DNA of 64,000 nucleotides from Paucibacter sp. B2R-40 (GTDB lineage: Bacteria; Pseudomonadota; Gammaproteobacteria; Burkholderiales; Burkholderiaceae_C): NCBI RefSeq assembly GCF_025717555.1, contig NZ_JAJIRP010000005.1, positions 186,001-250,000 on the forward strand, written 5' to 3'. Shown one piece after another: positions 5,672 to 39,816 of the stretch. A program made the position numbers and the translations under genes. The stretch's first letter is position 1. Every line of letters starts with the position of its first letter. The notes under the pieces were generated by a model. The model saw only the letters and a program-made list of their open reading frames with translations, ran no database searches and was not told the DNA's origin.

Positions 5672-6340
5672 TCACTTCCCGTTCGCTTGCGCCGTAGTCA
5701 TCACCCGCTGCGCATCCATCTGCCCACGCAACTCCTCGGCGACGTTCTCCAGGCGGATGTCATTCCAGCCAAACAGCGGATCATTGATGCCGGTGATTTC
5801 GGACGGCGTGCGGCTCAGATAGCGTTTGATCGCTTCTTCACCCACCGCAAACAGCTTGCGATTCTTGGCCTCGGCGTCTTGCAGCGCCAGCGTGCTGCGC
5901 TCCAGTAGGCGCGCGGTGACCTGCACCGCTTGCTGACGTTCACCGCTTTCGCGGCGGGCCGCTTGCAATTGCTGCTGCAACTCCTTTTCCCGCGTCCCAG
6001 CACTGGCCTCCAGCGCCGATTTCGCAGCCTCAGCGGCTTGCAAATCGGCTTGCAGCTTTTGCGTCAGCTGCTCCAGCGCCTTGAGCTTGGCAGCTTGACC
6101 CGAGACCTGCGCGCGTGCCTTGCCGGCGTCTTGCTCGGCGAGCAGTTTCTCTTGCTCCAGCTTGGCCTTCTCGGCACTCAGACTGGACTGCTGCTCTTGC
6201 GCAGATTTCAGCGCTGTTTGCGTCCGGCGCAAGGCCTCGCGTTCCTTGGAGGCCTTGGCGTCCTGGGCTTGCGCAGGCAAGGCCGCACACAGACCAGCAC
6301 AGCAGGACAGTAAAAAGAGCTTCTTCAAATATGGCTTCAT
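5672..6340 (-). CDS. Periplasmic coiled-coil protein of unknown function
   Basis: The start is set at the ATG at 6340, giving MKPYLKKLFLLSCCAGLCAA followed by LPAQAQDA, a signal peptide with likely cleavage after AQA. The 222-residue product is then almost entirely Ala/Gln/Glu/Lys-rich heptad sequence (about residues 30-160), a long coiled coil. It ends with a short globular segment containing YLSRTPSEITGINDPLFGWNDIRLENVAEELRG. An upstream in-frame ATG at 6364 would overlap the porin gene and spoil the signal peptide. It is the last gene of the Ton/two-partner secretion block and lies 10 nt behind the porin gene. No family was recognised; a periplasmic spacer or tether to the outer membrane or porin is a guess. 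Confidence 0.7.
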   Translation of the reverse strand: MKPYLKKLFLLSCCAGLCAALPAQAQDAKASKEREALRRTQTALKSAQEQQSSLSAEKAKLEQEKLLAEQDAGKARAQVSGQAAKLKALEQLTQKLQADLQAAEAAKSALEASAGTREKELQQQLQAARRESGERQQAVQVTARLLERSTLALQDAEAKNRKLFAVGEEAIKRYLSRTPSEITGINDPLFGWNDIRLENVAEELRGQMDAQRVMTTAQANGK

Positions 6341-6350
6341 GCCCAACCCC

Positions 6351-8114
6351 TTAGAAGCGCGCATTCAGATCAAGCTGAATCACGTCGATGCGCAGCGGCG
6401 CGCTGCTCAAATTGCCGCTGACGGAAGTCGGGTCGCCCGGCACCGCCAAGAAGCGCACTTTGTCATCCAGATTGCGCGAGCTGGTCCAACGCCCGCTCAA
6501 CCAGAAGTTGCGATCAAAAGCGTAGTTAGTGCCCAGCGACCAGCCCTTGTAATTGGTGCCGCCCAGATGCCAGGTGGTGTCGGTGAAGGCGTCGACCCAG
6601 GCATCACGCTCCATATAGCGGTAGGTGATGAAGCTCTGCCAGTCGCCGCGCTTGGCCAGCTTGGCGCTACCGGCTTGCACGCGCGCCTGTACGGCCAGGG
6701 TTTTGGCCTCAAGCTTGGACGATGAGTCGCTCAGGCTCATGCCGGAGCGGGCCCGGATGTCGGCCAGATCGAATGCAGTGTTTTTCACCACATCGAGATT
6801 GAAATTCAGCATCACCGGCGCCAAGGCATCCAGGCTCAGACCTGCCGTCACATTGACCGGCCGGAACTTCGGCGCCAGCCCCCAAGTCGGCGCGGCCACG
6901 CTGGTCGGGTCATTGATATTGATCAGCGTGTTGCCCTTTTGGCGCCAGCCCGCCGAGTACTGACTGCTGAAGTAATTGACCGTGCCGGCGCGTGGGCCGC
7001 TTGGCGGCGGATCGGTCTCGCGCACACCCTCGATATGTTTGAAGTCATAGATGGCCAGACCCAGTTTCAGCTGCGTGCCCTTGGCCAGCGTGAATTCGCC
7101 GCCGACCTGCGCACCCAGCAACCATTTGTCGCGGCTGCTGAGGTTCAGCTCTTCCAGCGCAAACAGCCCCGCGTTGGCGAAGAAGCCCTGCTGCGGAGAA
7201 ACATAGTGCTTCATATTGGCGGCAACGCCGTCAAAGTTCAGATCATCCGACCAGGTCAGGTCGCTGCTGTAAAAGGGATTGGGCATGCGGCCAAAGTCGG
7301 CACTCAAACCCTGGAAGCCGACCGGAGGCTGCCAGTGCAACCAGGCGCGGTCCAAGGTCAAGCTGTAGCGATTGAAACCACCGCCATTGCCTCCAAGGGT
7401 TTGGCTGGTGGAGGTCGGCCCGGTCAGGCCGCCGGTCGACAAACGCATGCCTGCCTGCACCTGCTCAGACAAGAGCGCATCCACATCCAGGCGCGCACGC
7501 AAGGTCATGCGCTCGCGGTTGGTGTTGGTGTTGCTGAGATCGGGCGCCCAGGCGGGTGAGCTGGTTTGCGCGCGGTAGACCGAGGCCGGCACATTGCCGT
7601 CATCAAACATATCGCCCTGTGCACGTACGCGCATATCGCCGCCGATGCGGATGCGGCCCAGCCAGTCGGGCATCGCGCCCGGCTCACCCCAGCGCTCACT
7701 CTTGGCCTGCGCCAGCACCTCGGTCTTGATCTCGTCGCGCATTTGCTGGCGTGCGGTCTCGGGCACATAGGGCACGCGCACCACTTTTTGCGCCGCGCCC
7801 GCCCCAGCGGCCGCGCCGGCCGTGGCCGCCAACGGCGTACCCCATTGAGCAGCGCCAGGTGCCCCTTGTTGCTGCGCTTGCTTGACGATCGCGTCGGCGC
7901 GCTCGCGCGTGATCAAGCCCTGACCCACCAAGGCTTCAATCAGCGCCTGGGTGGTGGCGCGCAGCGCCGCGAGTTCTTGCTTCTCATCTGCACTGATGCT
8001 TTGTGCTTGGGACGGCAAAGCGCAGCTCAAGGCGGTGGCAAGGGCCAGCGCGGAAAGAGGCCAGACGCGGGGATTTTTTGGAGAGCACAGCGTGCTCTGC
8101 TTGGCTTTGATCAT
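6351..8114 (-). CDS. Putative outer-membrane porin (Porin_5-like)
   Basis: A 587-residue outer-membrane protein. The chosen start at 8114 gives MIKAKQSTLCSPKNPRVWPL then a hydrophobic stretch ending in ALPSQAQS, a normal signal peptide. A helical segment follows (residues ~40-110, including ALVGQGLITRERADAIVKQA, typical of this putative porin family). The rest is a series of amphipathic beta strands with repeated 'YRxxxQ', 'LRARLDVDALLSEQVQAGMR' and 'FGRMPNPFYSSDLTW' segments typical of Porin_5 proteins. The last residue is phenylalanine (DLNARF), the usual outer-membrane barrel signature. It is downstream of TonB, so it could be the outer-membrane partner of that motor, although I see no clear TonB-dependent plug domain. 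Confidence 0.82.
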   Translation of the reverse strand: MIKAKQSTLCSPKNPRVWPLSALALATALSCALPSQAQSISADEKQELAALRATTQALIEALVGQGLITRERADAIVKQAQQQGAPGAAQWGTPLAATAGAAAGAGAAQKVVRVPYVPETARQQMRDEIKTEVLAQAKSERWGEPGAMPDWLGRIRIGGDMRVRAQGDMFDDGNVPASVYRAQTSSPAWAPDLSNTNTNRERMTLRARLDVDALLSEQVQAGMRLSTGGLTGPTSTSQTLGGNGGGFNRYSLTLDRAWLHWQPPVGFQGLSADFGRMPNPFYSSDLTWSDDLNFDGVAANMKHYVSPQQGFFANAGLFALEELNLSSRDKWLLGAQVGGEFTLAKGTQLKLGLAIYDFKHIEGVRETDPPPSGPRAGTVNYFSSQYSAGWRQKGNTLININDPTSVAAPTWGLAPKFRPVNVTAGLSLDALAPVMLNFNLDVVKNTAFDLADIRARSGMSLSDSSSKLEAKTLAVQARVQAGSAKLAKRGDWQSFITYRYMERDAWVDAFTDTTWHLGGTNYKGWSLGTNYAFDRNFWLSGRWTSSRNLDDKVRFLAVPGDPTSVSGNLSSAPLRIDVIQLDLNARF

Positions 8115-8170
8115 GATGGGGAACAAAAAAGGGGGAAAGAGTTTTGCTTGCAGGTATTCGTCCTCAAGCG

Positions 8171-8887
8171 TCAAGCTTGGGGGCGCACACTGAGTCGAAA
8201 GCGCATCGGTTGGGTCAGCGCCGGCGGCGGCGGCAGCTTGAACTGGCGGCTGGTTTCGTCCAGCGCCAATCGCATCGCGGTGTCATTGCCGTTGTCGCCG
8301 CTGGGCGTCAATTCATAACGCTGAATACTGCCGTCACGCTCCAGCCAGATGGCAAACGTGGCGGTCAGCTGCGCGGCATCGCTTTTAAGCCGACGCTCCA
8401 GTTCATCGCGCAAAAGCTGCTTGGCGCTGTTGGCATAGAAGCGCTCTTGCGCACGGTCGGAGGCTGTGGCGCCGCCGCCGGCTGGGCCGCTGGCCGGCGT
8501 GCCGCCGCTGTAGTCTTTGCCGACCGAGCCGGCCGCAAAAGCGCTCGGCCCGTCGCCGGCCGCGCCCTCCATCTTCAGCGGCTCATTGGCAGGTTTGGGC
8601 GCCTCGGCCTGTTTGATCTGCTCGTCACGCATCACCTGCTTGGGCTCGTCCTTGGGCGGCTCGGGCTTCTTCAGCTCGGGTTTTGGCGGCGGGGGTGGCG
8701 GAGGCGGGCTGTCGGGCAAGATGCTGATTTTGGCTACTTTCTGCTTGGGCGCGTCATTGCTCTTGAGCCCCTTGACGGCCCAGATGCCGGCGCCCACGAC
8801 GGCCAAAAATGCCAGCGCCACGCCCAGCCTGATCAGCCATTTGCGGCTGGGCGCGTCGTCCAGATGGTCTTCTGCGAGTCCACTCAT
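8171..8887 (-). CDS. TonB-like energy transducer
   Basis: A 238-residue protein with TonB architecture: a short cytoplasmic N terminus, one membrane helix (about residues 19-38, IRLGVALAFLAVVGAGIWAV), a Pro-rich periplasmic spacer (eight Pro in a row near residue 60, then KPELKKPEPPKDEPK), a Gly/Ala-rich linker and a C-terminal domain (ERFYANSAKQLLRDELERRL ... ATFAIWLERDGSIQRYEL) with the TonB alpha/beta pattern. TonB couples the inner-membrane proton motive force to outer-membrane receptors. A good SD (GAGGTGA) precedes the ATG. It follows two exbD genes and precedes a porin gene, so it belongs to a dedicated Ton unit. Confidence 0.85.
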   Translation of the reverse strand: MSGLAEDHLDDAPSRKWLIRLGVALAFLAVVGAGIWAVKGLKSNDAPKQKVAKISILPDSPPPPPPPPKPELKKPEPPKDEPKQVMRDEQIKQAEAPKPANEPLKMEGAAGDGPSAFAAGSVGKDYSGGTPASGPAGGGATASDRAQERFYANSAKQLLRDELERRLKSDAAQLTATFAIWLERDGSIQRYELTPSGDNGNDTAMRLALDETSRQFKLPPPPALTQPMRFRLSVRPQA

Positions 8888-8910
8888 TTTTCAATCACCT
8901 CAAGTGCAGT

Positions 8911-9312
8911 TCAAGTACCAATACGGGCCGTCACCAAACCCATATTGACCTGCAGCTTGTTGCACAGATCGATCACCGCGACCACGCTGGCGTACTGCGT
9001 GCGTGCGTCGCCCTTGATCGCCACCGACATTTGCGCGTCGCGACCCTTGGCCGCCAGCAGTTGCGCCTCCAGCTCGTCCAGCGTGACACCCACGCCATTG
9101 ATCAACACGCCGCCGCCCTCCATCACCTGCACGATTTTCAAATCATGCTTTTCGGTGCTGGGCTTGTTGCTGGGCTTGGGCATGGTGATTGACATGCCCT
9201 GCACCGAGGCGGTGGTCATCAAGATGAACACCACCAGGAGCACATAGGCCAGATCCAGCATCGGCGTGACGTTGATCGTGTCTATCGGCTTGACTTCGTT
9301 TTGTACTTGCAT
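8911..9312 (-). CDS. exbD: ExbD/TolR-family protein (second copy)
   Basis: A 133-residue ExbD/TolR protein: a short N-terminal tail, one membrane helix with the proton-path aspartate in INVTPMLDLAYVLLVVFILM, and a periplasmic domain with LKIVQVMEGGGVLINGVGVTLDELEAQLLAAKGRDAQMSVAIKGD. It works with ExbB as the stator/motor for TonB. It is one of two tandem exbD genes, 18 nt apart; the copies share the membrane segment (TPMLDLAYVLLVVF) but their periplasmic parts differ, consistent with a heteromeric ExbD pair. Confidence 0.92.
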   Translation of the reverse strand: MQVQNEVKPIDTINVTPMLDLAYVLLVVFILMTTASVQGMSITMPKPSNKPSTEKHDLKIVQVMEGGGVLINGVGVTLDELEAQLLAAKGRDAQMSVAIKGDARTQYASVVAVIDLCNKLQVNMGLVTARIGT

Positions 9313-9330
9313 GGCTTGTGCTTGCTTCTT

Positions 9331-9744
9331 TTATTCGGGGGCGGCGCGCTTGGTGACCAGGCCAATCTCGGTGATGTCCAGCTTCTTGGCCACCTCCAAG
9401 ACCTGCATCACCTTGTCGTACTGCGCCGCGGCGTCGGCCTTCAAGACCACCGGCAAAGCCGGATTGCCTGCTTTGTACTGCGCCAATGTGTCACGCAACT
9501 GATCCATGTCGACCGGGTAGGCATCTAAATACACGGCGCCATCGGCGGTGATGGTGATGGCCCGCGTTTGCGGCTTGGCCAGATTGCTGGTGGCATGCGT
9601 GGTCGGCGACTTCACCTTGACGCCTTGCACCGAGGCGGTGGTCAAAATAATGAACACCACCAGCAGCACATAGGCGAGATCCAGCATCGGCGTGACGTTG
9701 ATGTCGTCATAGGGTTGGTTGTCACTTTTGACATCGGCCGACAT
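9331..9744 (-). CDS. exbD: ExbD/TolR-family protein (first copy)
   Basis: A 137-residue ExbD/TolR protein with DDINVTPMLDLAYVLLVVFI around the membrane helix and its conserved Asp, and a periplasmic domain including RAITITADGAVYLDAYPVDM and LPVVLKADAAAQYDKVMQVL. It lies 50 nt downstream of the exbB-like gene and 18 nt upstream of the second exbD. It is a proton-channel partner in the Ton motor. Confidence 0.92.
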   Translation of the reverse strand: MSADVKSDNQPYDDINVTPMLDLAYVLLVVFIILTTASVQGVKVKSPTTHATSNLAKPQTRAITITADGAVYLDAYPVDMDQLRDTLAQYKAGNPALPVVLKADAAAQYDKVMQVLEVAKKLDITEIGLVTKRAAPE

Positions 9745-9794
9745 GTTGTTTGCTCCGGATCAAGGCAAGGATGAAATCGGGGACGCGATGCAGT

Positions 9795-11507
9795 TCAGGG
9801 CGCGCCGTGCAGCTCGGCCACGCGGGTGATGAACTCATCGATAAAGATCTGCATGTCTGACGACACGTTCTTGATCTGCGCGGCCAGGTAGTTGTAGGCA
9901 AACAGCGCAGGGATAGCCACTGCCAAGCCCGCCACCGTGGCCAGCAAGGCCGAGGCAATGCCCGGTGCGATCGCGTTGACGTTGACGTCACCGGCGGCCG
10001 CAATCGCGGCAAACGTAATCATCACGCCGACCACCGTGCCCAGCAGGCCCAGGAATGGGCCGCCGGCAATCGCGATTGTCAGCAGCACCATATTGGAGTT
10101 CAGATGCGCGTTCTCACGCACAAAGTCGGCATCCACCGAGGCCTTCACCGCGTTCATGGCCGGGCCACTCAAGACCGGGCCACCGGCATGGCCGACCTTG
10201 CGCTTGTCCAGCTGCTCGATGCCGGCTTCATACAGACGGAACAGTGGCGAATGCTTGTGCTTGGCGGTCTGCGCCAAGGTCAGCAAGTCTTTGTCGGCAG
10301 CGCGGAAGCGCTTCAAGAAGCTCAGATTGTCCTTGGCCGCGCGGCTCACCAAGATCGCCTTGCTGACCGTGACCCAGAAGGCAACCACAAACATAATGCC
10401 CAAAATAATGATGACGATCCAGGCATCGGTGGTCAGGTTCTTGACCAAAATGGCGAAGTGCCCGGCATGTTCTTCACCGCCACTCTCGGCCGTCTCGCGT
10501 TGCGAAGCCACCAAGCGGCTCTCGGCACCTTGCGCGCCGGCCGACACCGCCAGCCACTCGGCACTGCGCAAATTGCTGGAGACCTGCAGCTCATCCAACA
10601 AGCCCACCGCGCCCTCGCCGACCTTGAGGCTGCTGCCCAGCAAGGGCGTGGCCATATCGCCCTGCGCCACTTGCACGCCGCCGACGAACAAGGTCGCCTT
10701 GCCCAAGCCCAGCCGCAGGGCCAGATGGGTCCATTTGGCGGCCGCGATCTCACCGCCCGCCAATTCGGTCTTGCCGCTACTTGCGACCAATTTGCCGCCC
10801 TTGACGTTCAGGTTCAAACCGCCCCAATTCAGGACGCCAGCACGCGTCACGTCATCGAGCTTGACCCACAGGCTGACGGTCAGCTGATTGCCGCCGTCCA
10901 CAATGGTCTTATCACTCAAGGGGTAAACAATCGGCGCGCCGCTGAGCTTGGCGCTGGCCGCCAGCAAGCCGTTGGCTTCAACCGTGATGGGCAATTCCGG
11001 CTTGACGCCGCCTTGATGGTCAGCACCTGCTGGCGCCTTGTCGCTGAAGTGAAAAGCCGCCACGGTAGCCGCGTCAAAGCCGGCCGCCGCGACCGAGTCG
11101 CCCGGTTCGGCAGCGGCCTTGGCATTGCCCGCATAGACGTAGAACTGATTCTTGTCGCTGCCCGGCAGCACATTGGGCACTTGCACCCACAGCACCGCCA
11201 ACTCGTTGACGCCGTCAAAGCGCTCGATGCTGAACTTCAGCGGCGTCTTGTCGTCGGCCGCGATCACGCGCAGGTCCGAGCCATCTTCCTTGGCGGCCGT
11301 GAAATCAAAGTTACCCGAGTGCAAGCGCACCGCCACGGCCACATTGCTGGCGGCCTCCTTGGTCTCGGTGCCCTGCGCCGAGGTGTTCAAAGTGATGCGG
11401 GTGCGGCCGCTCCAGTCGGCATTCCACCAGGCGTGAGCGGCGCCCGGCAAGGCGGAGCCGATCAGAGCGAGGGCCAGCAGGCCGGTACGAAAACTTGCTT
11501 TGCGCAT
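9795..11507 (-). CDS. ExbB/MotA/TolQ proton channel with N-terminal DUF2341/LamG-like domain
   Basis: A 570-residue fusion. Residues 1-26 form a signal peptide (ends AAHA). WWNADWSGRTRITL begins a DUF2341-type domain, followed by a concanavalin/LamG-like segment with NQLTVSLWVKLDDVTRAGVLNWGGL and TELAGGEIAAAKWTHLALRLG (to about residue 330). The C-terminal third is a normal ExbB/TolQ module with three membrane helices (about 355-385, 465-500 and 515-540, the last with ALLATVAGLAVAIPALFAYN). Ordinary ExbB is about 220-250 residues and has no large exported domain, so this channel carries a big periplasmic beta-sandwich. It is followed by two exbD genes and a tonB-like gene, and lies 65 nt downstream of the giant adhesin gene. 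Confidence 0.88.
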   Translation of the reverse strand: MRKASFRTGLLALALIGSALPGAAHAWWNADWSGRTRITLNTSAQGTETKEAASNVAVAVRLHSGNFDFTAAKEDGSDLRVIAADDKTPLKFSIERFDGVNELAVLWVQVPNVLPGSDKNQFYVYAGNAKAAAEPGDSVAAAGFDAATVAAFHFSDKAPAGADHQGGVKPELPITVEANGLLAASAKLSGAPIVYPLSDKTIVDGGNQLTVSLWVKLDDVTRAGVLNWGGLNLNVKGGKLVASSGKTELAGGEIAAAKWTHLALRLGLGKATLFVGGVQVAQGDMATPLLGSSLKVGEGAVGLLDELQVSSNLRSAEWLAVSAGAQGAESRLVASQRETAESGGEEHAGHFAILVKNLTTDAWIVIIILGIMFVVAFWVTVSKAILVSRAAKDNLSFLKRFRAADKDLLTLAQTAKHKHSPLFRLYEAGIEQLDKRKVGHAGGPVLSGPAMNAVKASVDADFVRENAHLNSNMVLLTIAIAGGPFLGLLGTVVGVMITFAAIAAAGDVNVNAIAPGIASALLATVAGLAVAIPALFAYNYLAAQIKNVSSDMQIFIDEFITRVAELHGAP

Positions 11508-11572
11508 TTTGATGATCCAGAAAAATTTGACTGAAAGCGTGACTGTGTGAATGGGGGCAGGCTGGGGCCGGC

Positions 11573-23500: not shown

Positions 23501-23569
23501 CCATGCGCGACTGCGCGCCGAAGCCGGTGCGGACTTGTGGTTCGGTGTCGTGATGCGTGTGGAGGCCAT
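11573..23569 (-). CDS. Giant filamentous-haemagglutinin-like TpsA exoprotein
   Basis: A 3998-residue secreted protein. Residues 1-47 form an extended signal peptide (ends LQALAQA). Residues ~60-310 are a two-partner secretion (TPS) domain: GRDMRIEQSSQRAIYKWQSF, then the hallmark NPNGI at 150-154 and FLFAKQVINEGKLTAPGGQVVLAGG. The body is thousands of residues of short Gly/Ala/Ser/Leu/Val beta-helix repeats (for example GNLSLLSGGDLLLQS, AGGSLTLQSGGSVKLGQGAVLDVSGG). A Pro/Thr-rich stalk occupies about residues 2409-2738, with a shorter one at about 2982-3042. A C-terminal region of the FHA-family (DUF3739-like) type ends in the very basic KKRRRSRRNLLLEFLGFGNS. Its transporter tpsB lies directly upstream (86 nt gap). 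Expected role: cell-surface adhesin or filament. Confidence 0.93.
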   Translation of the reverse strand: MASTRITTPNHKSAPASARSRAWGRWMLHPLVAALSTALPLQALAQAKPLPTALPVPVNSLAGWRVSGQGQAGLPVGVNNNLGGRDMRIEQSSQRAIYKWQSFNIGETSSVTFDMAQPGASALNRVGGTAPSQIFGKLKATNGGELLIYNPNGILFGAKSSVDVGSLLATTLSPKNADYLNGFVGNITGGSAAFRYDSADGAPYVANSSFVHVEPGAELKTAEGGRIFLFAKQVINEGKLTAPGGQVVLAGGAEVYYKQPKDEAIYASEVNTNVPALRGLLVEVGKAGMATGAGEAINKAGGVINTPRGNTTLVGLAVNQSGRISASTSVSQNGSIMLLAQGDALDAAADGISTGDPRYKRASTSGKLLIGAGSRTEILADGQGADGKPLLADDNATFVRSRLDLAGANISIGQAAEIVAPGALAQLQALKTPNYVAGLVDSQRLNMSDQSGRIVIDAAARIDVSGTRDTELSVARNFVTTELLGSNDLKDAPLQKEGLLYRNKVTLDIRQSSPILGDLESYRKGVQRGASERLASGGSLRLLAGEGVYSHATSTLSVAGGQVNFVGAEVRPTQLFGSNGQAYTLNNAPKDLLYTGISNAGVNKAKYDRWGAVVAFDSVSSAQLEAGYVEGRAGGNLTIIAPRVTLDGGLVGGTVLGRRQAAGLDALAAAGQLRLGALKHVSDFGDGSYDGAILERFALGASAARLSESQWADLRVDLQAPLSAQSGLSASRLMASGFGDVVVAAQQDVGLSEDLTLASGAKLSLLSEQGLVRAAANVRAPAGALTLRSLSGAVEVAPTIKLDVSGLWVNAAQDSQAPLQGLAGGSLTLQSGGSVKLGQGAVLDVSGGALMTGTLKLGDCAADRICGAAAGAIVLSSGVASFTEDAAARGLDLSNAALRGYSMTQGGSLSLVAASVQLTDGVGSKPDANLQLGSEFFSQGGFQNYTLDGRSFLTIAGGFQLKPQLQLWQASPAARVAASTADSTKVQALMQAGSQTTGFAKPVNISLASSGLGVARPEGQLNMATGSAISLAPTAKLNLAAGTSLMVDGSLTATGGQVNLRLSRNTNVQDVNTPRYLWLGGNSRIDVAGQRQMQPSNDGLLQGRVLPGGSVNLEVAGSLASSLVWQSGGKIDISGAVGELDLKQRVAGSEQLTRQTVASGAGSLTVRANQDLLLEGDLRAFAGAKDQAGGKVSVRLELGTLTGNTDQLPPLRELRVGQQQTQISANLSPEQLKGATELKGRALLSAAALQASGADELSLSARERIAVDGGVSLNLARAISLDAPVVAMSGDTAASLSAADLVWANTQAIVEATAGKRPLPQASTGASKLTLQASERLLLDGELVTQGLGNLSLLSGGDLLLQSHSYKQGLLFGSLTTLADVRLNAAQIFPATDTQFQLSASGHSIEFGLQGTTTPAAPWSAGGSLLAQADMIVQGGRLRAPAGRIELQGAKSVGLLSGSETSVSAAGQDLLFGNWSGEKWFAPGAESAVLTASAAPAKSLVLSSAQGKVRVDAGAKLDLSGGGSLQAWQFVPGPGGSTDVFSGSDGAFAIVPAVASGGHADVKLTEASTAPSSGRQITIGTGGPVPAGTYTLLPARYALLDGAFLLRPAAAGTPLALGTALKRDDGTVLVGAKLGVAGTQVLDAQSSTWQVLTPAQARKASEIRMAEADSFFSALAAKQDRVTPALSRDAGSLVVTAQRVDLQGAMRFDAAKNKAGLQGSGGAAFFAADRIQVGGTPSAQDVDMLWLSPAQLSDLGVQSLVLGAAPASLSEPLKLNVRSSTVNISSDATQPLRTQSLLLLAKDSLSLGQGATISAFVPEGATSSNSSAGQDWRVAGDGAAILLSGNASTGMTRSEAKREIGSLSIADGVSLTASSGSLLLDATFSSSFGSGVNLAASHIGIGAPRIQIGGTAAVVSDSLLLDGALLTKVSRADQLMLRSYSSIDLLAGASLGSASLGQLSLDTPLLQVLGDPNAGAGRVQAAGLVLGNSTGLLAPTPVETAQGKLLLTAGESVVASKDRGNVMLAAGEQRWHVAQAEVSAERALLLSGKSRLNVDGDLLVRTPVLKASALADADWQVRGAASLLAHPAQPSVSLSAADAVVASRLAIKAASLGLNTLIDLPAGQLSLQATGQDADVVFDSSARVNVAGRSVAIGTAPNAPVAQVAAGSLTARSEHGDIEMRAGALFDLSGSGRAFGAEGGDAGRLELSASEGGLTLRGELSAAAGSAERGGSLSLDSSVALDLADLSQALKQAGNYAFAESIAVRNRVGAQILPTAASFSAQRIALTTDGGALTVAGSLSNASAAEAGYIALNARDDITVLAGAKLSAKGGEGGTVSLNSQQGWLNLQAGASIDVSNAAGQTGSGELLLRAARQGQDVRVSAIQSSLTGVSRVDVEAFKVYDGVKQLYDGVAPTAAPTLAPTLVPTAGPTKAPTAGPTLAPTSGPTKEPTTPPTVPSDGNGATTGNEKPPVSPTPAPGLSAQPSDAGVPGSGDQPSSGTPGTTKDTKPPPAPTGPTVAPTASPTAAPTVAPTTAPTVAPTAAPTVAPTASPTVTPTVAPTVAPTVQPTAAPTTSPTVAPTVSPTVAPTIAPTVAPTAAPSSPSAGNGGTTGTVKPPAPPTGPSTLPTLAPTSAPTDPSAGNGGTTGNVKPPAPPTQPSVAPTGGPTVAPTATPTVAPTSTPTVGPTVAPTVVPTVTPTVSPTVAPTIAPTVAPTVAPTLSPTVAPTVQPTVQPTTPPADPAMLALSQVVADNRAFMGTDAGSAETIAARISNGNTDLKRILLVRPGVEIRAAEDLKLQDNWAMPVLSKAQIQQAPHAGEAAITLRAAGDLLLQADLSTGLRPSPIEGQGLIGTSERAGSIRLVAGADLSSADPMAIQALDSQAQAKGSLLIGQTSGAAVKLRSTVGRISLAAARDIQLLNPGATVLSLGAPVGVLDVVVEPTDPTSPELPPSDAGAEGLAAAGSLLRAQAAANAVILAEGDATEPSTGNGNSTGNVKPPAPPTVPGQTAEPTTTPTPGPTQSPTVAPTPSPTTPPVVIDPLPVTTHQFILEGISQDLGSSGVSPFTQGGRGITLQAGRDIKGAAPVESQRYVSDWLWRARSSDVNRAWFARADKFQQGFATLGGGNIRAEAGRDVSQLRVAAASSGYAGLSADAAAAMKAAGATAINQQFGGGSVSVLAGRDVISGQFMAARQGLDLKAGGVVRSDTALSTNLDPGLQLIYQDGQVRVQTGGNATVASVRNFAYAYINPDNNLGRDLSLPALDFNASLFLQSAGGSINYLGADQVRATGVRGNEVSYVLPADLRILAPKGLVNMGTSLQWSAAADPGKARTVLAAEQDLDLGRFEVLALAAQPGQAAIAGSDMLSLALGLQEARTFIRDTNRLATLDQSNRVPVQLVSGGGDVRVDSVLVSARPLELTAGRDVRFAQSGQVSIQHHPAAEGMAQESSVIKAGRDLAFSSSNSTAGINIAGPGELLVLAGRDIDLGGGAGIVANGNLANSVLLPAQGSNVTVVAGLREDGADYRAATQQGFHVLGASGLAGKQGLAFKLLGGTEADFDRLSSPAQMDALRGLLGDARMDAALVSYVRGLPARPNVAEQRLRMANLLGKPVADAAVDAALKDVGSLVEPAWSNLSAAQALKFSVELSETQRAYAVNRILLAQLSALPASKRTALLQALGDPAQLKALASYVQINTGEALTIAPEQALARFEALPVERQMPWLNSVLMAELRSAGRAALQLEGDEKWSRYGSAYMAIDILLPQDRPKANIVMSSSQIKTMQKADITVINPGGGAVAGDLVAKSVKAGGKSATELGLVTVNGGDINTVVAGNFEVNSSRVFTLGKGNVLMWSSTGNIDAGRGAKTVSGAPAPVLRLDSEGRLVFDTSGSFSGSGIAVLSAGSDLDLHAPTGEINAGEAGIRSKGNAFLGAERLVNANDIKVDGARSGAAPEVVAAAPITLPASDAVTNAASGLNSAEKDDDEKKRRRSRRNLLLEFLGFGNS
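14445..14625 (-). repeat. Second Pro/Thr-rich segment of TpsA
   Basis: Coding repeat of P-T-x-x / x-P-T-x units (EPTTTPTPGPTQSPTVAPTP) preceded by another copy of the GNGNSTGNVKPPAPPT module also seen in the main stalk. It covers about residues 2982-3042 of the giant TpsA. Confidence 0.75.
15355..16345 (-). repeat. Tandem 12-nt (xPTV) repeat array encoding the TpsA stalk
   Basis: About 1 kb of degenerate 12-nt units, reading on the plus strand as variants of GGTGCGACGGTC, encodes dozens of APTV/SPTV/GPTV tetrapeptides. Three copies of a spacer module of the form GNGxTTGxxKPPxxPT interrupt it. It covers about residues 2409-2738 of the TpsA protein. It is a coding repeat, not a CRISPR: there are no unique spacers and the frame is kept throughout. 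Confidence 0.9.
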
Positions 23570-23654
23570 GGTGGGTGTCTTCTTTTTACTGCTGCTATCG
23601 ATGCGTTGAATTCAAGGTGCTGGCGGATCGGCGCTGGGCGCGGGGTTCAAGCGC

Positions 23655-25364
23655 CTAAAAGCGCAGGCCCGCCCGCACATGCACATGCTCTGAAGACGCC
23701 GCCGGGTTGCTCGGCAGCGGCTTGTGGCGCTGCGCCCAGTCAAAGCTCAGACTCAGGCCCGGCTGCACCGCCAGACGAAAGCCCAGCCCGGCGCCCAAGA
23801 GCGGCGTGCGCCCTTGCTGGCCCGGCTCGGGGTTGTACAAATTGACCTGCGCCGCGTCGGCAAAGCCATAGAACACAATCTCGCTGAAGGCCGGCATATT
23901 GACGCCTTCAAAAGCGCTCAAAAAGCCCGGCGCCAGATTGCGGCTGCGCAACTCCATCGACGCCAACAGACCCCGGTCACCAGCCACCGCGCCCTCGTCA
24001 TAACCGCGCACCGTATCGGCGCCGCCGACTGAGAACTGCTCGGCGCTGGTCAATGCCTGGTTGGCCAATTGGCCGCTTAGGCGCAGGCCCACTTCGGCCG
24101 GGCCCAAGCGCTGGGTAGCGCGCCAATCGGCGCGCAAGGTGGCGAAGCCGCCGTCGGCGCCGCGCCGCTTGCAGGCGAATTGATCGGCCTGGCCAAAGTT
24201 TCCGTCCAGCAACTGGCAGTCGTCACGAGTCTTCTGCAAGAGCGGGCGCAGGCCCAGCACCGCCGTCACGCTGAGCTGCTGCTGCAGCGTGTTGCCCCAC
24301 CAAGCGCCGTTGTAGCCGGCCTGAAAAGGCATGTATTGCAGCGGCGAGGCGATCACGCCGCCGCTGGTGCGCACGTCCTCGGTGAGGTTTTTATAGTCAA
24401 ATCCCAGGCTCAAGGAATGCACCGAATCGGCCAGGGGCCGATTCATGCCATAGCGAAAACCCAGCGTGGTGCCGCGGCCGAGCACGCGGGTGCCGCCCAG
24501 CGACTCGAGATCACTGCTGGAGTCAATTGCCGTGAAGTTGAGGCTGTCGCCATCGGCCAGCGGTGCGGTGTAGTTGAACACCAACACGCGCGACTCTCTA
24601 GGGCTGAGCGGCGCGCCCATCACGCTGAGCGACACCACATGGTCGCGCTGCAAGAAGTTGTCGTAATGCAGATTGACGGCCATGCGCACCGGGTCGGTGC
24701 CGACCGCCGCCGCATTGCTCATCTCGATGCTGCCGCCTATGGGCAGTTTGTCCTCAACTTTTAACTCGGCCTCGACCGTGCCGGGCGCGCGGCCGGGCTT
24801 CAGCACCGGCTGCACGCGCCGCTCGTCACCCCGGCTGACCGAGGCGATCTGCTGCTGCACGGTATTGAAGTTAGGCACCTGGCCGGGGGCCAGCTCGGTC
24901 ACCGCCGCGCGGATGCGGCCTTGGGCGTAGTACTGCGAGCCGGTCACGTAAAGCGCACCGACGCGGCCCTCCAGGACCGTCAGGCGGATCACGCCGCCGT
25001 CGACGCGCTGCTCGGGCACGTCCACAAACACGGTCAGGTAGCCCGCCGTTTGATAGGCTTTCTCCAGTGCCGCGCGAGCCGCTTCGACCTCGGCCATGCC
25101 CAGCTGCGGGCCCAAAAAGGGCAAAACGGCGGCCTCGATCTGCAACTCGCTCAGGCGGGTGTTGCCATCGATCTCGAATTCAAAGATGTCGAATTTGGGG
25201 GCCACGATGGCGGGCGCAGCGGCCTGCGCTGCCGGCTGCTGCGCCTGCACGGCTGCGCCGGCCATACACAGGCCAGCCGCGCACAGCAAGGCTGCAATTG
25301 CGCGCAGCTCAAAACAAAACCGCGCCCGGTAGGGGGCGCGGATCTTTTTTAATAAGACGTCCAT
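23655..25364 (-). CDS. TpsB outer-membrane transporter (ShlB/FhaC/HecB family)
   Basis: A 569-residue two-partner secretion transporter. The start at 25364 gives a signal peptide (MDVLLKKIRAPYRARFCFEL ... GAAVQA); the upstream in-frame ATG at 25409 falls inside a palindrome and adds an unlikely leader. After a short Pro/Ala stretch come a POTRA domain (KFDIFEFEIDGNTRLSELQI ... AYQTAGYLTVFVDVPEQ) and a second one (GALYVTGSQYYAQGRIRAAV). The 16-strand barrel follows, including the family motifs near GGADTVRGYDEGAVAGDRGL and a terminal VRAGLRF ending in Phe. It should export the adjacent giant TpsA across the outer membrane. An 18-bp dyad lies about 44 nt upstream of the start. Confidence 0.93.
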   Translation of the reverse strand: MDVLLKKIRAPYRARFCFELRAIAALLCAAGLCMAGAAVQAQQPAAQAAAPAIVAPKFDIFEFEIDGNTRLSELQIEAAVLPFLGPQLGMAEVEAARAALEKAYQTAGYLTVFVDVPEQRVDGGVIRLTVLEGRVGALYVTGSQYYAQGRIRAAVTELAPGQVPNFNTVQQQIASVSRGDERRVQPVLKPGRAPGTVEAELKVEDKLPIGGSIEMSNAAAVGTDPVRMAVNLHYDNFLQRDHVVSLSVMGAPLSPRESRVLVFNYTAPLADGDSLNFTAIDSSSDLESLGGTRVLGRGTTLGFRYGMNRPLADSVHSLSLGFDYKNLTEDVRTSGGVIASPLQYMPFQAGYNGAWWGNTLQQQLSVTAVLGLRPLLQKTRDDCQLLDGNFGQADQFACKRRGADGGFATLRADWRATQRLGPAEVGLRLSGQLANQALTSAEQFSVGGADTVRGYDEGAVAGDRGLLASMELRSRNLAPGFLSAFEGVNMPAFSEIVFYGFADAAQVNLYNPEPGQQGRTPLLGAGLGFRLAVQPGLSLSFDWAQRHKPLPSNPAASSEHVHVRAGLRF

Positions 25365-25404
25365 GAACGCAGTGTCACCAGGGCCGGTGAATCCGTTGTG
25401 AAAA

Positions 25405-25428
25405 GACATGAGCCGTTCGGCTCATGTC
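25405..25428. promoter_or_regulatory. Perfect dyad (18-bp core ATGAGCCGTTCGGCTCAT) upstream of tpsB
   Basis: Perfect 11-bp inverted repeat with a 2-nt centre. The core at 25408-25425 is identical to a second palindrome at 30551-30568. It lies 41 nt upstream of the tpsB start and 47 nt downstream of the PEP-CTERM gene stop. On the minus strand four T residues follow, so it could also act as a terminator of the upstream gene. A LuxR-type operator is the alternative. Confidence 0.6.
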
Positions 25429-25474
25429 GTACCCTCTTATCTTGAGGGTCAGTGGATGACAGTCGGCGCTGCGG

Positions 25475-26626
25475 TCAAGCCTGGCGAGTCGCCTGACGCC
25501 TACGCCAAGCAAGCGCAGCCAAACCCAGGCCGAAGAGGCCGTAGGTGGCGGGCTCAGGCACCGCGTTGACCTGCAGGCCAGCGCTTGGCGTCCAGCCGAC
25601 AAACTCATTCACTGGAGCCGTCACGCTGCGCACGCCGCCGTAGAGGGCCCAGAAATCGGTCAGATTGCGGCGAATCGCACCTTGACTTGTACTGAGCCCA
25701 GTCAAATGCGCTTCCATGTTGAAGCTGAGAATGTATTTGGGGGGGGCAGTTGGGTTGGGATCGTCTTTGACGGTCGCCATCCCCCAAAAGCCGTCATGAC
25801 TCAGGTTGTCAAATTCGTCGATGTCAATCACGCCGTTCGCGCTTTCGCTCGACGGCTTCAAGCTATAGAACCAAGACGAACTGCCGACCGGGTTGAAGGT
25901 ACCGAGCGTCCCACCAAGATTGCTGGGCTCACCCGATGGCGAGAAAAAGACGCCGGCGTAACTTGGGGAACTCTCGTCATCGAAACTTGAACCCTGCAAA
26001 TCGTAGTTTGCTTGCGTATGTTCGGTATTCGCATTGCCATGACTATTGTTCGGGTTCGAATTGCCACCAATATTCAATTCATTCACATAGCTAACCCAGT
26101 TCGCGGCAGCATTTTGCGCAACTGCATTTTTATATTTTGTCAGCGCGTTGTATTCGGGGTTGACCACCTTGCCTGGACCGCCCGTGCTGTCGTCGACTCT
26201 CAGCGTGGTGTAAAAGTTAGTGGGTACAAAACCGATTGTGCCAACTGAGTAGCCCGCATAGACGCCCCAGACTTGTTTGGTAATGTCTGTTGATTTATCC
26301 AGGAATTTTTGGAAGTTAGGGTCCGAATTGAGCGGGTCGAAAAATTTTTGATAGCCGCCGTCCTGTTGAGCCTGAACAAAGAGATTCTTGGCGGGATCAA
26401 GCACGGGGACGCCCTCCTCCCAGGGCTTGTTAGGCGCCACAAGCAAACCCAGGTCCTTGGTATAGGAAACTCTTTTGACCGGATCAAACACCACCAGCAC
26501 CAACTCCGGAAAGACGCCGGCTTCGGAGGTTCCATCACCAGAAATCAGTGCATGTGAGGCACTGGGTACCAGGATTGCCACGCTCAGAACTGTGGCTCGG
26601 AGCAGGGGTTGAGCAGGTTTTTTCAT
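25475..26626 (-). CDS. PEP-CTERM sorting-domain protein (larger paralogue)
   Basis: A 383-residue exported protein: a signal peptide (MKKPAQPLLRATVLSVAILV ... ASHA), a body without recognised domains, and a C-terminal PEP-CTERM signal VPEPATYGLFGLGLAALAWR followed by RRQ, the target of an exosortase. Near the N terminus, PELVLVVFDPVKRVSYTKDL-G matches AELVFIAYNDKGSFTKDLG in the smaller PEP-CTERM protein at 28445-29203, so the two are paralogues. An Asn/Ser/Gly-rich middle (GGNSNPNNSHGNANTEH) is typical of surface proteins. The ATG at 26626 is preferred over a TTG at 26635; neither has a strong SD. No exosortase gene lies in the window. Confidence 0.85.
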   Translation of the reverse strand: MKKPAQPLLRATVLSVAILVPSASHALISGDGTSEAGVFPELVLVVFDPVKRVSYTKDLGLLVAPNKPWEEGVPVLDPAKNLFVQAQQDGGYQKFFDPLNSDPNFQKFLDKSTDITKQVWGVYAGYSVGTIGFVPTNFYTTLRVDDSTGGPGKVVNPEYNALTKYKNAVAQNAAANWVSYVNELNIGGNSNPNNSHGNANTEHTQANYDLQGSSFDDESSPSYAGVFFSPSGEPSNLGGTLGTFNPVGSSSWFYSLKPSSESANGVIDIDEFDNLSHDGFWGMATVKDDPNPTAPPKYILSFNMEAHLTGLSTSQGAIRRNLTDFWALYGGVRSVTAPVNEFVGWTPSAGLQVNAVPEPATYGLFGLGLAALAWRRRQATRQA

Positions 26627-26763
26627 GGTCGGCAACTCGATCAGTCAATCAATCAAACAAACGGTCAGTCTTTCAAACAGTCGTTGCGATGTGGGTTTCG
26701 CATGCCGCGACCACAACACCCAAACTGTTCATTGAAGTCGAGAGCAATGACTTCAATGACGGC

Positions 26764-26803
26764 AAAAAAGGGGCGAGCAAAAAGCCAGGCTTGCGCTCGC
26801 CCC
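26764..26803 (-). terminator. Rho-independent terminator of the PstS-like gene
   Basis: A 9-bp perfect stem (GGGGCGAGC at 26770-26778 with GCTCGCCCC at 26795-26803) followed on the minus strand by six T residues (26764-26769). It lies about 50 nt past the stop of the gene at 26854-28338. Confidence 0.88.
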
Positions 26804-26810
26804 TGGGTTC

Positions 26811-26841
26811 AGATCAACTGAGCTTGTGCGGCAGTTGATCT
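26811..26841. other. 10-bp perfect inverted repeat before the terminator
   Basis: AGATCAACTG at 26811-26820 pairs with CAGTTGATCT at 26832-26841, with an 11-nt loop and no T tract. It sits between the PstS-like stop codon and the terminator and probably folds as a 3'-UTR stem-loop that protects the message end. Confidence 0.6.
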
Positions 26842-26853
26842 AGCCAACAAAAA

Positions 26854-28338
26854 TCAAAACTGAGTCGTCACTGCTGTGCAAGAAGCGGCGGACTTGCGCG
26901 AGGAGTGCGATGTGAAATCGCGCTCGGCTTTTGGCAGGTCAGCCCAAGCGCCGGTGAAGCTGGTAGGCACAGCGGCCAGACCGGCTTGGAAGTCAGGATC
27001 CAAACCAGCCAAGATCGTTGCCTTGCCCATGTTGTTGCGCAACAGTTGCAGCAAAGTCAGCTTGTCGCCGGTCGGTGCGTTGGCGCCGCTCTTGGCCCAT
27101 TGCATGGTGGACTCGAACACAAACTCGTAGGAACCATCGACAACGTTGGCACGCTCAGGAGCGACGTTATTCAGCTTGACATAGCGGTAGCCCTTGTCGC
27201 CCACAACGCCATTGACGGTAGGCGTTGGGTTGTTCTCACGACCGATCACAGCCAGGCCGTATGCGCCGGCGATGTTCTGCACCGTGGTGCCCAAGCAGGT
27301 TTCAACCAAGCCAGTGCTGGTATCGGCCTTGTAGGCAGCGGAACCCAGTGCGCCCAAGACGCCGGTCGTACCACCCGTGGTGGCTGTCGGGCCAGCCACT
27401 GGATACTTGTCACCGCCGCCGCATGGGTTTTGGGAGAAGAATGCGTTTGCAGCGGCTTGCGTGCCCGAGCTGGCGGCGCGGCGGCAGACGTTGACCTTCT
27501 TGTTCACGGCATTGGCGTCAGCCGCAGCGTCGACAACCAGATTCCAGCCCTTCTTGGCAGTGGTGCTGCCCTGGAGTTGGCCGGTCAAGACACCACGCAC
27601 AAATGGGATTGGCAGGCTAGGCTGCTTGGCAGCAGATTCGTCGATGGCGGTAGCAGTAGGGTCAACCAGACCCTGGGTTTTTTGCAAAGCCAGGTACAGA
27701 TTCTTGTTGACGGCGACGCCGAAAATGTTCTGCACAAAGCCGACGGCTTCCAGATTGGCAACCGAGCGACCCAGGCCGCCGTTGATGGTGTTCTCCAGCA
27801 ACGATGGCTCAACGTCGGACAGGCCGGCGTCAGCCAAGCCAGCAACCGTGCCTGAGCACAGGAAACCTACTTTTTGGATGTCGGTCGCTGGCGAAACGCT
27901 GCCCGCTGGTGTGGTGCAAGTTGCATCGACCTTCATGTGCGTTTGGGTCGCATCGGCCGTGATCAGCGGGCCAACGCCTTGGCCGGAACCGCCTGCATCA
28001 CGCTTGGTGATCAAAACTGGTGTACCGACACCCCAGCCGCCGACGGCAGTCTTCAGCAAGAAGGAGTAAGCGCGGTGATTGGCGCCGGTGGCGTCGTTCC
28101 AGAACACGTCCAAGGACTTTTGGCCAGCCTTGGGGTGACCGTCAGGATAAACACCGGCCAAGTCAGCCTGGATGAAGCCACCCAGAGCGAAACGCAAGGC
28201 GGATGCGCCGGTGATCTTGATTTCTTTCAAGGTGCCATCATTGCGCGCGGCGACGACTTCAGCTGGGGTCAGCGCGTGGGCCGAACCGAGGGCAGCCAAA
28301 GCGGCCACGGCGATCAGGGAGCTGCGAAATTTCATCAT
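26854..28338 (-). CDS. PstS-like periplasmic substrate-binding protein (tentative)
   Basis: A 494-residue exported protein. Two adjacent ATGs at 28338 and 28335 begin MMKFRSSLIAVAALAALGSA, a signal peptide ending AHA. The mature N terminus EIKITGASALRFALGGFIQA recalls the 'I..SGSSA' strand of PstS-type binding proteins. Later segments also fit that fold: TKRDAGGSGQGVGPL, LADAGLSDVEPSLL, NIFGVAVNKNLYLAL and NVVDGSYEFVFESTMQW. Six or so cysteines could form disulfides. It is not a standard-length PstS and there are no ABC transporter genes nearby; instead it lies between two PEP-CTERM genes. No PEP-CTERM signal is present. Ligand unknown; it may not bind phosphate at all. Confidence 0.6.
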   Translation of the reverse strand: MMKFRSSLIAVAALAALGSAHALTPAEVVAARNDGTLKEIKITGASALRFALGGFIQADLAGVYPDGHPKAGQKSLDVFWNDATGANHRAYSFLLKTAVGGWGVGTPVLITKRDAGGSGQGVGPLITADATQTHMKVDATCTTPAGSVSPATDIQKVGFLCSGTVAGLADAGLSDVEPSLLENTINGGLGRSVANLEAVGFVQNIFGVAVNKNLYLALQKTQGLVDPTATAIDESAAKQPSLPIPFVRGVLTGQLQGSTTAKKGWNLVVDAAADANAVNKKVNVCRRAASSGTQAAANAFFSQNPCGGGDKYPVAGPTATTGGTTGVLGALGSAAYKADTSTGLVETCLGTTVQNIAGAYGLAVIGRENNPTPTVNGVVGDKGYRYVKLNNVAPERANVVDGSYEFVFESTMQWAKSGANAPTGDKLTLLQLLRNNMGKATILAGLDPDFQAGLAAVPTSFTGAWADLPKAERDFTSHSSRKSAASCTAVTTQF

Positions 28339-28398
28339 GATGTTTGCTTCTCTATCGGGAGTTAAGTTCAGAAAAACTTGGCAAGGCTGCGCCCAAGA

Positions 28399-28416
28399 CA
28401 TGGCCAAATGGCCATG
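28399..28416. promoter_or_regulatory. Perfect palindrome upstream of the PstS-like gene
   Basis: CATGGCCA-AA-TGGCCATG, an 8-bp inverted repeat with a 2-nt centre, 61 nt upstream of the start codon. It has the same geometry as the ATGAGCCG-TT-CGGCTCAT dyads but a different sequence. Candidate operator or hairpin in the 28339-28444 gap. Confidence 0.45.
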
Positions 28417-28444
28417 CCTCAGACTTCAAACCAGACTTGGGAAA

Positions 28445-29203
28445 TTAAGCTTGGCGGCGGCGAGCAACGAAACCAACAGCGCACAGACCGGCGATCAACA
28501 TCGCGTAGGTGCTTGGCTCTGGAACTGCAGCGGTCGCAGCAGCGGTGATGTTCGAACCGTCAAAATTAACCTTGACCGTTGTGAACGGAACCACCAGAAC
28601 CTTTTGGCTGGCGAACGAGCTCGAGCTTGTCAGGTAGACGATGTCGGCAGCTTCACCGACGGCGCTGCTCGCACCGTAGGTATTGCCCAGGTTGGTGTAG
28701 CCATTGGCGTAGTCTTCGGTGCCGACCAAACCGGTCCACTCGATGTTGTTCACGCCTGCATCAAGACCGATGCCAGCGTTGTTGGCCGACAGGTCTGATT
28801 GAACGAAGAAACCAGCCAAGTTTTGCGACGCGTTGTTGAACAACGAGTTGATCAGGTTGTTGGCAACTTGGCTGCTGTTCTTGGTGATCCAAGTGTTGAT
28901 TTCGTAAGGGTTGGCACCAAAGTCGTTTTGGTTGGTCGCTTGCAAAGACCAGACCGTGCCTGTGCCGCCCAGCGCTTGGAAGCGGCTGTACTCGCTGCCC
29001 AGTACGCTCACATTGAGGCCTTGAGCCAGGAATTGGTTGGTCGTGATGCCCAGATCCTTGGTGAAGGAACCCTTGTCGTTATAGGCAATGAACACCAGCT
29101 CGGCTTCACCCGTAGCGGCTTCCCAGCCGGTGGCGATAGTCGCGAATGCAGGCGAGAACGAGGCTGCAGCCAAAGCGGCCAGGGCGATTTTCTTGATTTG
29201 CAT
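28445..29203 (-). CDS. PEP-CTERM sorting-domain protein (smaller paralogue)
   Basis: A 252-residue exported protein: a signal peptide (MQIKKIALAALAAASFSPAFA), an Asn/Ser/Gly-rich body, and a C-terminal PEP-CTERM signal VPEPSTYAMLIAGLCAVGFV followed by ARRRQA. The start at 29203 has a good SD (GGAG, 7 nt spacing). The N-terminal motif AELVFIAYNDKGSFTKDLGI is shared with the PEP-CTERM protein at 25475-26626. It is the first gene of the Ton/two-partner secretion block and is preceded by a 374-nt non-coding region with several hairpins, which probably carries the main promoter. Confidence 0.85.
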   Translation of the reverse strand: MQIKKIALAALAAASFSPAFATIATGWEAATGEAELVFIAYNDKGSFTKDLGITTNQFLAQGLNVSVLGSEYSRFQALGGTGTVWSLQATNQNDFGANPYEINTWITKNSSQVANNLINSLFNNASQNLAGFFVQSDLSANNAGIGLDAGVNNIEWTGLVGTEDYANGYTNLGNTYGASSAVGEAADIVYLTSSSSFASQKVLVVPFTTVKVNFDGSNITAAATAAVPEPSTYAMLIAGLCAVGFVARRRQA

Positions 29204-32061: not shown

Positions 32062-32065
32062 GGGC

Positions 32066-34297: not shown

Positions 34298-34299
34298 TT

Positions 34300-39639: not shown

Positions 39640-39672
39640 GGCGGACAAGAACGCTGAAAAAGGCCGACAGCA

Positions 39673-39682
39673 ATGAGCCGAA
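39673..39682. promoter_or_regulatory. Half copy of the 18-bp dyad upstream of gspF
   Basis: ATGAGCCGAA matches the left 10 bases of the reverse complement of the dyad found at 25408 and 30551, but the right arm is not conserved. It lies 34 nt upstream of the gspF start. Weak on its own; it gains weight from the nearby degenerate copy at 39817. Confidence 0.35.
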
Positions 39683-39816
39683 GGAGCTACGAGTGGCGCG
39701 ACTGTATTCATCTGCTGTGACTGCGCCGTGAATGACAGTGATGTGACATTGACAAGCCAATCAGCACCCGATCTGCTGTTTGTTTTTTGCCCGCCATCAG
39801 TCAAAACCAGCCAAAC

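Follow-up and report, generated by a model that had tools for sequence, protein, structure and literature searches.

A block of eleven genes in Paucibacter sp. B2R-40 joins a two-partner secretion (TPS) pair, the transporter TpsB and a giant TpsA, to genes for a private Ton motor (ExbB, ExbD and TonB) and a putative porin of the Porin_5 family. It lies at 5672-29203 on the minus strand of a 64,000-nucleotide stretch of contig NZ_JAJIRP010000005.1 (positions 186,001 to 250,000), hereafter the window. Our main finding is that a TpsA carrying DUF3739, an ExbB fused to DUF2341, and Porin_5 are an all but inseparable set across genomes, with ExbD and TonB beside the fusion. The core comprises TpsB, DUF3739-TpsA, DUF2341/LamG-ExbB, ExbD, TonB, Porin_5 and usually a coiled-coil protein; genes so seldom found apart probably make up one machine. 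As to its workings, we tentatively favour the view that the block represents, in Betaproteobacteria, an EpsA/exosortase-linked form of a conserved envelope machine, in which a private TonB motor would act on TpsA, on Porin_5 or on both; this is the likeliest of the readings weighed below without being likely outright.

The eleven open reading frames (ORFs), numbered P0001 (last gene) to P0011 (first gene), were confirmed by ORF list, translations and family scans with Pfam and NCBIfam. In order of transcription they encode PEP-CTERM, PstS-like, PEP-CTERM, TpsB, TpsA, DUF2341/LamG-ExbB, ExbD, ExbD, TonB-like, Porin_5 and coiled-coil-like proteins. The initial annotation had listed eleven same-strand genes with these identities and mostly short gaps; every ORF was found, with families mostly above cut-off. 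The core features are:

23655..25409, minus strand: TpsB (P0008), with POTRA_2 (PF08479) and ShlB (PF03865)
11573..23569, minus strand: TpsA (P0007), 3998 residues, with a TPS domain and DUF3739
22553..23323, minus strand: TPS secretion domain of TpsA, residues 83-339 (PF05860, 77 bits)
11738..12046, minus strand: DUF3739 near the TpsA C-terminus, residues 3842-3944 (PF12545, 99.9 bits)
11582..11614, minus strand: TpsA C-terminal strand RNLLLEFLGFG, residues 3986-3996 (score 27.8 against a shuffle threshold of 6.9)
9795..11507, minus strand: ExbB fusion (P0006), DUF2341 + Laminin_G_3 + MotA_ExbB (Pfam/NCBIfam)
9331..9744, minus strand: ExbD 1 (P0005; PF02472, 93 bits), transmembrane Asp kept
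8911..9312, minus strand: ExbD 2 (P0004; PF02472, 77 bits), transmembrane Asp kept
8171..8887, minus strand: TonB-like protein (P0003; PF13103 TonB_2, 26.1 bits, cut-off 22)
6351..8174, minus strand: putative porin of family Porin_5 (P0002; PF16930, 520 bits)
5672..6364, minus strand: coiled-coil-like protein (P0001), probably periplasmic; no Pfam family, coiled coil from reading the sequence

The N-terminal TPS domain of TpsA (TIGR01901 and PF05860 both above cut-off) and the POTRA and ShlB-type barrel of TpsB are those of type Vb secretion, and an ExbB-type channel, an ExbD with the proton-carrying aspartate and a TonB C-terminal domain are likewise all in the block. In such families TpsB exports TpsA, and ExbB/ExbD drive TonB with the proton gradient. 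The structures nearest to the channel part of P0006 are TolQ and ExbB, the LamG part matches lectin-fold domains, and the N-terminus looks signal-peptide-like by eye. At about residue 2550 of TpsA and nearby there are Pro-Thr (APT) repeats, which Pfam reports as three PT stretches.

We carried out a census of 399 genomes drawn from the order and 349 drawn from the phylum. Among the order genomes, 47 encode the ExbB fusion and 45 a DUF3739-TpsA: 44 have both, three the fusion only, one DUF3739 only, and 351 neither (Fisher p = 8e-54, a value in which kinship among the genomes inflates the independent evidence). Genomes with a single partner (fusion only: G086, G300, G347; DUF3739 only: G169) are all drafts in many contigs, and fragmentation may or may not explain them; partial fusion matches occur in the fragmented drafts G300, G347, G358 and G402. 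In the 44 genomes with both, DUF3739 lies less than 1.5 kb from the fusion in 33, at 1.7-30 kb on the same contig in nine, and on a separate contig in two. The independent occurrence of the partners in most genomes, which the initial annotation had named as counting against its linking of TPS and Ton genes, is not seen. At the phylum level, the 11 genomes with DUF3739 are the same 11 that match the ExbB profile; four of them (G000, G083, G192 and G319) are in the order draw as well. In G699, at a contig edge, the match covers only positions 288-558 in the C-terminal half. One more profile match, the twelfth (G530), was dropped as plain channel part only.

Porin_5, looked for in selected genomes, follows the same pattern, being present in 46/47 fusion genomes of the order (missing in G086) versus 0/32 without the fusion, and in 7/7 versus 0/46 at the phylum level; the single Porin_5 of the B2R-40 genome is that of the block. 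TPS domains of any kind are spread more widely (44/47 cluster genomes versus 10/32 others), and B2R-40 itself has four, one with DUF3739. A motor link for TPS systems in general is rejected, given the domains in 10/32 cluster-less genomes and the three non-DUF3739 TPS domains of B2R-40.

To follow gene order, we took the best 80 loci of at least 538 relatives found by a profile scan of genome contigs, mostly from named Betaproteobacterial genera or Burkholderiales, with a few metagenome bins under other labels; loci and genomes are related to one another, and some genomes are in both this set and the G-numbered census set. ExbD is present in 80/80 loci, TonB in 76, the porin in 74 and, after the porin, a homologue of the coiled-coil protein P0001 in 68; the missing parts fall at the ends of the available DNA, except in L074, where the coiled coil is absent despite room for it. 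A TPS gene is found in 78/80, the two without (L076, L092) being short contigs. The order exbB-exbD-tonB-porin-coiled coil stays constant while the TPS genes switch order and side: tpsA directly before exbB as in the window, tpsA-tpsB-exbB, or exbB...coiled coil-PEP-CTERM-PstS-tpsB-tpsA, with tpsA on the opposite strand in one locus. The TPS genes are thus reordered and yet linked, and such linkage points to function more strongly than a fixed order would by itself.

Other orders have the set too, as do genomes beyond the class and plasmids. Genes in the sequence TpsB-ExbB-ExbD-TonB-porin are found outside the order in G524, G715, G558, G582 (two copies) and G625. A coiled coil accompanies them in G558 (where DUF3739 is on another contig), in G625 and in one of the two G582 copies. 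In the split cluster of G684, exbB-exbD-tonB are on a different contig from TpsA, and the porin lies about 1.1 kb from the DUF3739 of TpsA on the opposite strand. RefSeq names on the Aquabacterium olei plasmid pTB101 (L201) follow the window order, except that there is a single PEP-CTERM gene and that the position of the PstS-like gene is taken by a hypothetical one. Further copies are on Methylosinus sp. C49 pMSC49a (L203) and Klebsiella quasipneumoniae pKqq_SB98_1 (L202); the Klebsiella ExbB is DUF2341 + LamG + MotA_ExbB and its porin a Porin_5 at 685 bits. pKqq_SB98_1 is typed as conjugative. On Methylomagnum ishizawai pRS11DPr1 (L205), DUF2341-ExbB, ExbD and TonB genes have no annotated porin adjacent, TpsA is about 16 kb off, and alkaline phosphatase and PhoX genes lie between the motor genes and TpsA.

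One could suppose that these are unrelated envelope genes under common regulation. Genes of an operon need not interact, and the PstS-like, PEP-CTERM and type II secretion system (T2SS) genes of the window are indeed dispensable neighbours. The co-occurrence is genome-wide, however, and is kept across rearrangements and in the split cluster, which makes this very improbable; on the order and phylum census and the Porin_5 counts we reject a chance neighbourhood.

What, then, might the motor act on? Most cluster TpsAs end in a strand of the form ~S-h-L-T-V-E-V-L-G-F-G, which follows DUF3739 at the end of TpsA that is last to exit the cell; the window copy begins thirteen residues before the end. 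We built a weight matrix de novo on 14 tails, setting the threshold at the 99th percentile of shuffles, and 28/29 held-out tails score above it. The first half comprised 28 tails, 14 of them used for training and 14 left unscored in the held-out test; the tails were made non-redundant by ungapped comparison only, so that relatives stand on both sides of the split. TpsA tails from other arrangements (10 genomes or plasmids) pass in 13/13 cases. As controls we used 19 TPS proteins without motor linkage; two (L183, L185) run off their contigs, and 0/17 complete tails pass. When every TpsA C-terminal ORF of the 80 loci is counted, with those used for training, 66/70 pass. The matrix supersedes a hand-made post hoc regular expression that had matched 54/90 tails and 0/19 controls.

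This tail strand, which resembles TonB boxes, could be a grip for TonB. TpsB would export TpsA N-terminus first, and the DUF3739 region and C-terminal tail would come last and might remain in the periplasm. ExbB/ExbD would use the proton gradient, and TonB may bind the giant surface protein and then pull, hold or release it, with Porin_5 as the putative outer-membrane partner of TpsA. The private TonB could hold the TpsA tail strand, a conserved strand of Porin_5 (VRVPYVPE, see below) or both. A narrower version is a proton-powered TPS system in which the lectin-bearing ExbB motor pulls on a TonB-box-like TpsA tail after TpsB has threaded the protein, Porin_5 being a partner; we regard this as possible but doubtful.

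Several observations weigh against a motor that acts on TpsA in this way. The likeness of the tail to TonB boxes is short, the strand might just as well bind TpsB, Porin_5 or a factor needed for assembly, and four of the 70 tails fall below the threshold (L074, L109, L115 and the partly masked L116). The coiled-coil profile has no match in G524, G715, G582a and L074. In P0006 the motif APGIASAL has Ser in place of the Glu of TolQ/ExbB APGIAEAL in the third channel helix, so that channel activity is assumed for a fusion that lacks the TolQ-position Glu. Such a replacement (A, S or G) is found in 97/97 pattern-matching cluster ORFs, a count limited to ORFs that match the pattern, with one further chance match dropped and some genomes counted twice; the Glu is present in the aligned TolQ structures and in one paralogue of the B2R-40 genome. 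Finally, passages of PMC5422565 hold that TPS export needs no energy source and state that it has been reconstituted in liposomes, and for this reason the motor is not required for export as such; the same source calls the driving force of TPS transport an open question.

Across the 80 loci, 141/146 ExbD ORFs show the pattern TPxxD; the remaining five carry PMLDL, hence the Asp as well. The number of ExbD proteins bears on a different use of the motor. There are two ExbD per ExbB in 66/80 loci. This resembles the Myxococcus Agl-Glt system, which has one TolQ-type protein (AglR), two TolR-type proteins (AglQ/AglS), a TonB-like domain and an adhesin. A comparable motor might drag the TpsA adhesin along or into the envelope, moving the cell or pulling a surface; the adhesin, outer-membrane barrel and coiled coil would suit it, and the TonB protein gives a weak GltJ match. 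That match, however, is 23.8 bits against a cut-off of 450, on which we reject membership in Agl-Glt, and many relatives differ from Agl-Glt in having a single ExbD: of the 14 single-ExbD loci, L102, L116 and L120 are truncated, while the other 11 would have space for another, and the clusters compared outside the order have one. We consider motility or retraction improbable.

The main rival is nutrient import, in which TpsA would capture a substrate and the private TonB open Porin_5 to it, phosphorus compounds being a likely cargo. Porin_5 is conserved as strictly as the motor, and N-terminal to its barrel it has the strand VRVPYVPE, with R133 and Y136 invariant in 21/21 aligned members. There is precedent in Haemophilus HxuCBA, where, according to passages of PMC5422565, the TPS protein HxuA works with TonB-dependent uptake via HxuC. 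Phosphorus is a recurrent theme: a PstS-like gene stands in the block, and alkaline phosphatase genes lie near the Methylomagnum copy. The comparable Pseudomonas aeruginosa locus (see below) is under PhoB and sigma-VreI control in the passages seen of PMC7035377. In P. fluorescens, as excerpted from PMC2225411, Psp, a protein related to PstS, leaves the cell mainly through the adjacent Hxc T2SS, and after its gene comes one encoding a haemagglutinin-domain protein of 4083 residues; the T2SS-like and PstS-like neighbours in the window echo this hxc-psp-haemagglutinin order. On the other side, the HxuCBA operon holds a true TonB-dependent transporter, whereas Pfam finds no TonB-dependent-receptor domain in Porin_5 P0002, nor such a receptor in 10/11 block proteins (P0011 was scanned with NCBIfam only). 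The PstS profile has no match in the VreA-type clusters of whole genomes (G172, G192, G319, G384) or in the clusters compared outside the order, though a substrate-binding gene adjoins the Methylosinus TpsA. Import also leaves the TpsA tail motif unexplained. On balance we think import unlikely, and motility and surface sensing less likely still.

In surface sensing, the motor would gauge tension on TpsA or its occupancy and signal to a regulator, which in some clusters would be VreA/VreI/VreR. VreA-like proteins do adjoin TpsA and carry TonB_2, as the cluster TonB does (STN + TonB_2 in G625 and G192, TonB_2 alone on the Klebsiella plasmid; STN alone in G172), and sigma and FecR genes follow the VreA-like gene of G625. 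By eye, some of these TpsAs have a second tail element, ~VQVLGxG, after the first strand (L202, L208 and clusters G172, G192, G319, G384 and G625). It is seen by eye in 9/13 non-EpsA tails, and a regular expression for it matches 0/68 tails in the set of 80 loci; it is also lacking in Methylosinus, despite a VreA-like gene there, and we draw no conclusion on the element. The window cluster has an EpsA-type regulator instead, and none of the genes scanned is VreA, VreI or VreR, a scan that did not span the whole window. Sensing seems to us quite improbable. For the block we still tentatively favour a TonB motor acting on TpsA, Porin_5 or both.

The remaining features of the block and its surroundings are:

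28445..29203, minus strand: PEP-CTERM protein 1 (P0011; TIGR02595, 26.8 bits, cut-off 16)
26854..28407, minus strand: PstS-like protein (P0010), from a 26-row family profile compared with solved structures
25475..26635, minus strand: PEP-CTERM protein 2 (P0009; PF07589, 36.8 bits, cut-off 20.7)
29578..30432, minus strand: LuxR-type regulator, NCBIfam EpsA, XrtB/PEP-CTERM-associated (TIGR03020, 176.5 bits, cut-off 170)
31582..39834, minus strand: T2SS/type IV pilus-like genes (pseudopilin, secretin, GspE, GspF) from the family scan, an accessory neighbour

The initial list did not include the EpsA regulator, the neighbouring T2SS-like genes or the motif at the C-terminus of TpsA. An EpsA homologue stands upstream of the block in most relatives compared, and T2SS-like genes in 9/14 relatives' stretches (not in G007, G009, G010, G381 and G320). 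P0010 has no Pfam or NCBIfam match. Its profile hits six structures at E<=1, every one a binding protein of phosphate or ABC type, the best at 2e-5 over about 75 residues, which lends weak support to calling it PstS-like; homologues number 27 ORFs in the compared clusters. By analogy, we would expect it to be cargo of the T2SS and not a part of the motor. Elsewhere the B2R-40 genome encodes XrtB, with EpsI above cut-off and EpsG below cut-off, and XrtA, so that PEP-CTERM proteins and exosortase are both present. Exosortase is found in 40/47 cluster genomes versus 10/32 without the cluster; among the 7/47 that lack it, G172, G192 and G319 carry a VreA-like neighbour or arrangement, and a core role for PEP-CTERM/exosortase is rejected. 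A loose PEP-CTERM regular expression gives short matches in many clusters, those outside the order included; often such a match falls within another gene or on its opposite strand. The PEP-CTERM proteins, PstS-like protein, EpsA regulator and T2SS-like neighbour all look like accessories. The initial idea of a single machine is well supported for the core but not for the PEP-CTERM pair and the PstS-like protein, which do not look universal: exosortase is missing from those seven genomes, and the PstS profile is unmatched in the VreA-type clusters.

From TpsB to the last gene, neighbours overlap or lie no more than 85 bp apart; wider gaps lie ahead of the second PEP-CTERM gene (about 220 bp) and at the regulator (at least 320 bp). 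Position 29203 is an ATG within the ORF 28445-29257 and the likely start of the first PEP-CTERM gene. Promoter and terminator scans of the block gave no excess over chance. A hairpin with a T-run at 5671-5655 on the minus strand, immediately 3' of the last stop codon, is well placed and plausibly a terminator, though the terminator scan overall is at chance level. A gene at 4664-5641 on the plus strand is convergent with the block and stands beside the same block in several relatives; it has no NCBIfam match, and glycosyltransferase is an impression from reading the sequence.

A TPS subfamily so rarely seen apart from a dedicated proton motor and pore would be a clear exception to energy-free type V secretion; alternatively, it would represent a new kind of TonB-driven uptake. 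Either way, the Pfam families DUF2341, DUF3739 and Porin_5 gain a common context, and a role is predicted for the uncharacterized exbB2-exbD2-tonB4 of P. aeruginosa.

The initial annotation had stated that no functional description of such a system was known. This holds for function: in the open-licence PMC literature (titles, abstracts and passages) we found no description of a motor-TPS mechanism, nor any mention of DUF3739. In passages of PMC12505986, DUF2341 is named as an appendage without known function that some GIT-class ExbB/TolQ A subunits carry, and the main text of that paper contains neither 'two-partner' nor 'filamentous hemagglutinin'. The statement does not hold for the core gene set, which is already in print, in passages of PMC2729926 and PMC7035377, as a co-regulated, uncharacterized locus within the P. 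aeruginosa PUMA3/sigma-VreI regulon. There the hxc T2SS, lapA, pdtA, phdA, pdtB, exbB2, exbD2, tonB4, PA0696 and PA0697 lie together, with pdtA/pdtB-exbB2-exbD2-tonB4-PA0696-PA0697 co-regulated and the Ton part termed uncharacterized. Homologues of PUMA3 elsewhere accompany TPS, ExbBD and PA0696 (PMC2729926, in passages). In the literature so searched we found neither the strict three-way co-occurrence and how widely it extends, nor the form linked to EpsA/XrtB, nor the tail motif of TpsA, and we take these to be new.

The block shares with the P. aeruginosa locus the gene order TpsB-ExbB-ExbD-TonB-porin-next gene, and TpsA, the comparison being with the order given in passages of PMC7035377 and not with P. 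aeruginosa sequences. A T2SS and a DING-like gene adjoin that locus too (PMC2225411, in passages). The Klebsiella plasmid matches the P. aeruginosa order down to the YbjN, PpiC and LysR genes; ahead of its TpsA come genes annotated as TonB-receptor-like, sigma and DUF4880. The block differs in having an EpsA-type regulator in front, with VreA, VreI and VreR absent from the genes scanned, and in its two ExbD, its PEP-CTERM proteins and its TpsA directly before ExbB. With these differences, we take its core to be the same in kind as pdtAB-exbB2-exbD2-tonB4-PA0696-PA0697 within the sigma-VreI regulon of P. aeruginosa.

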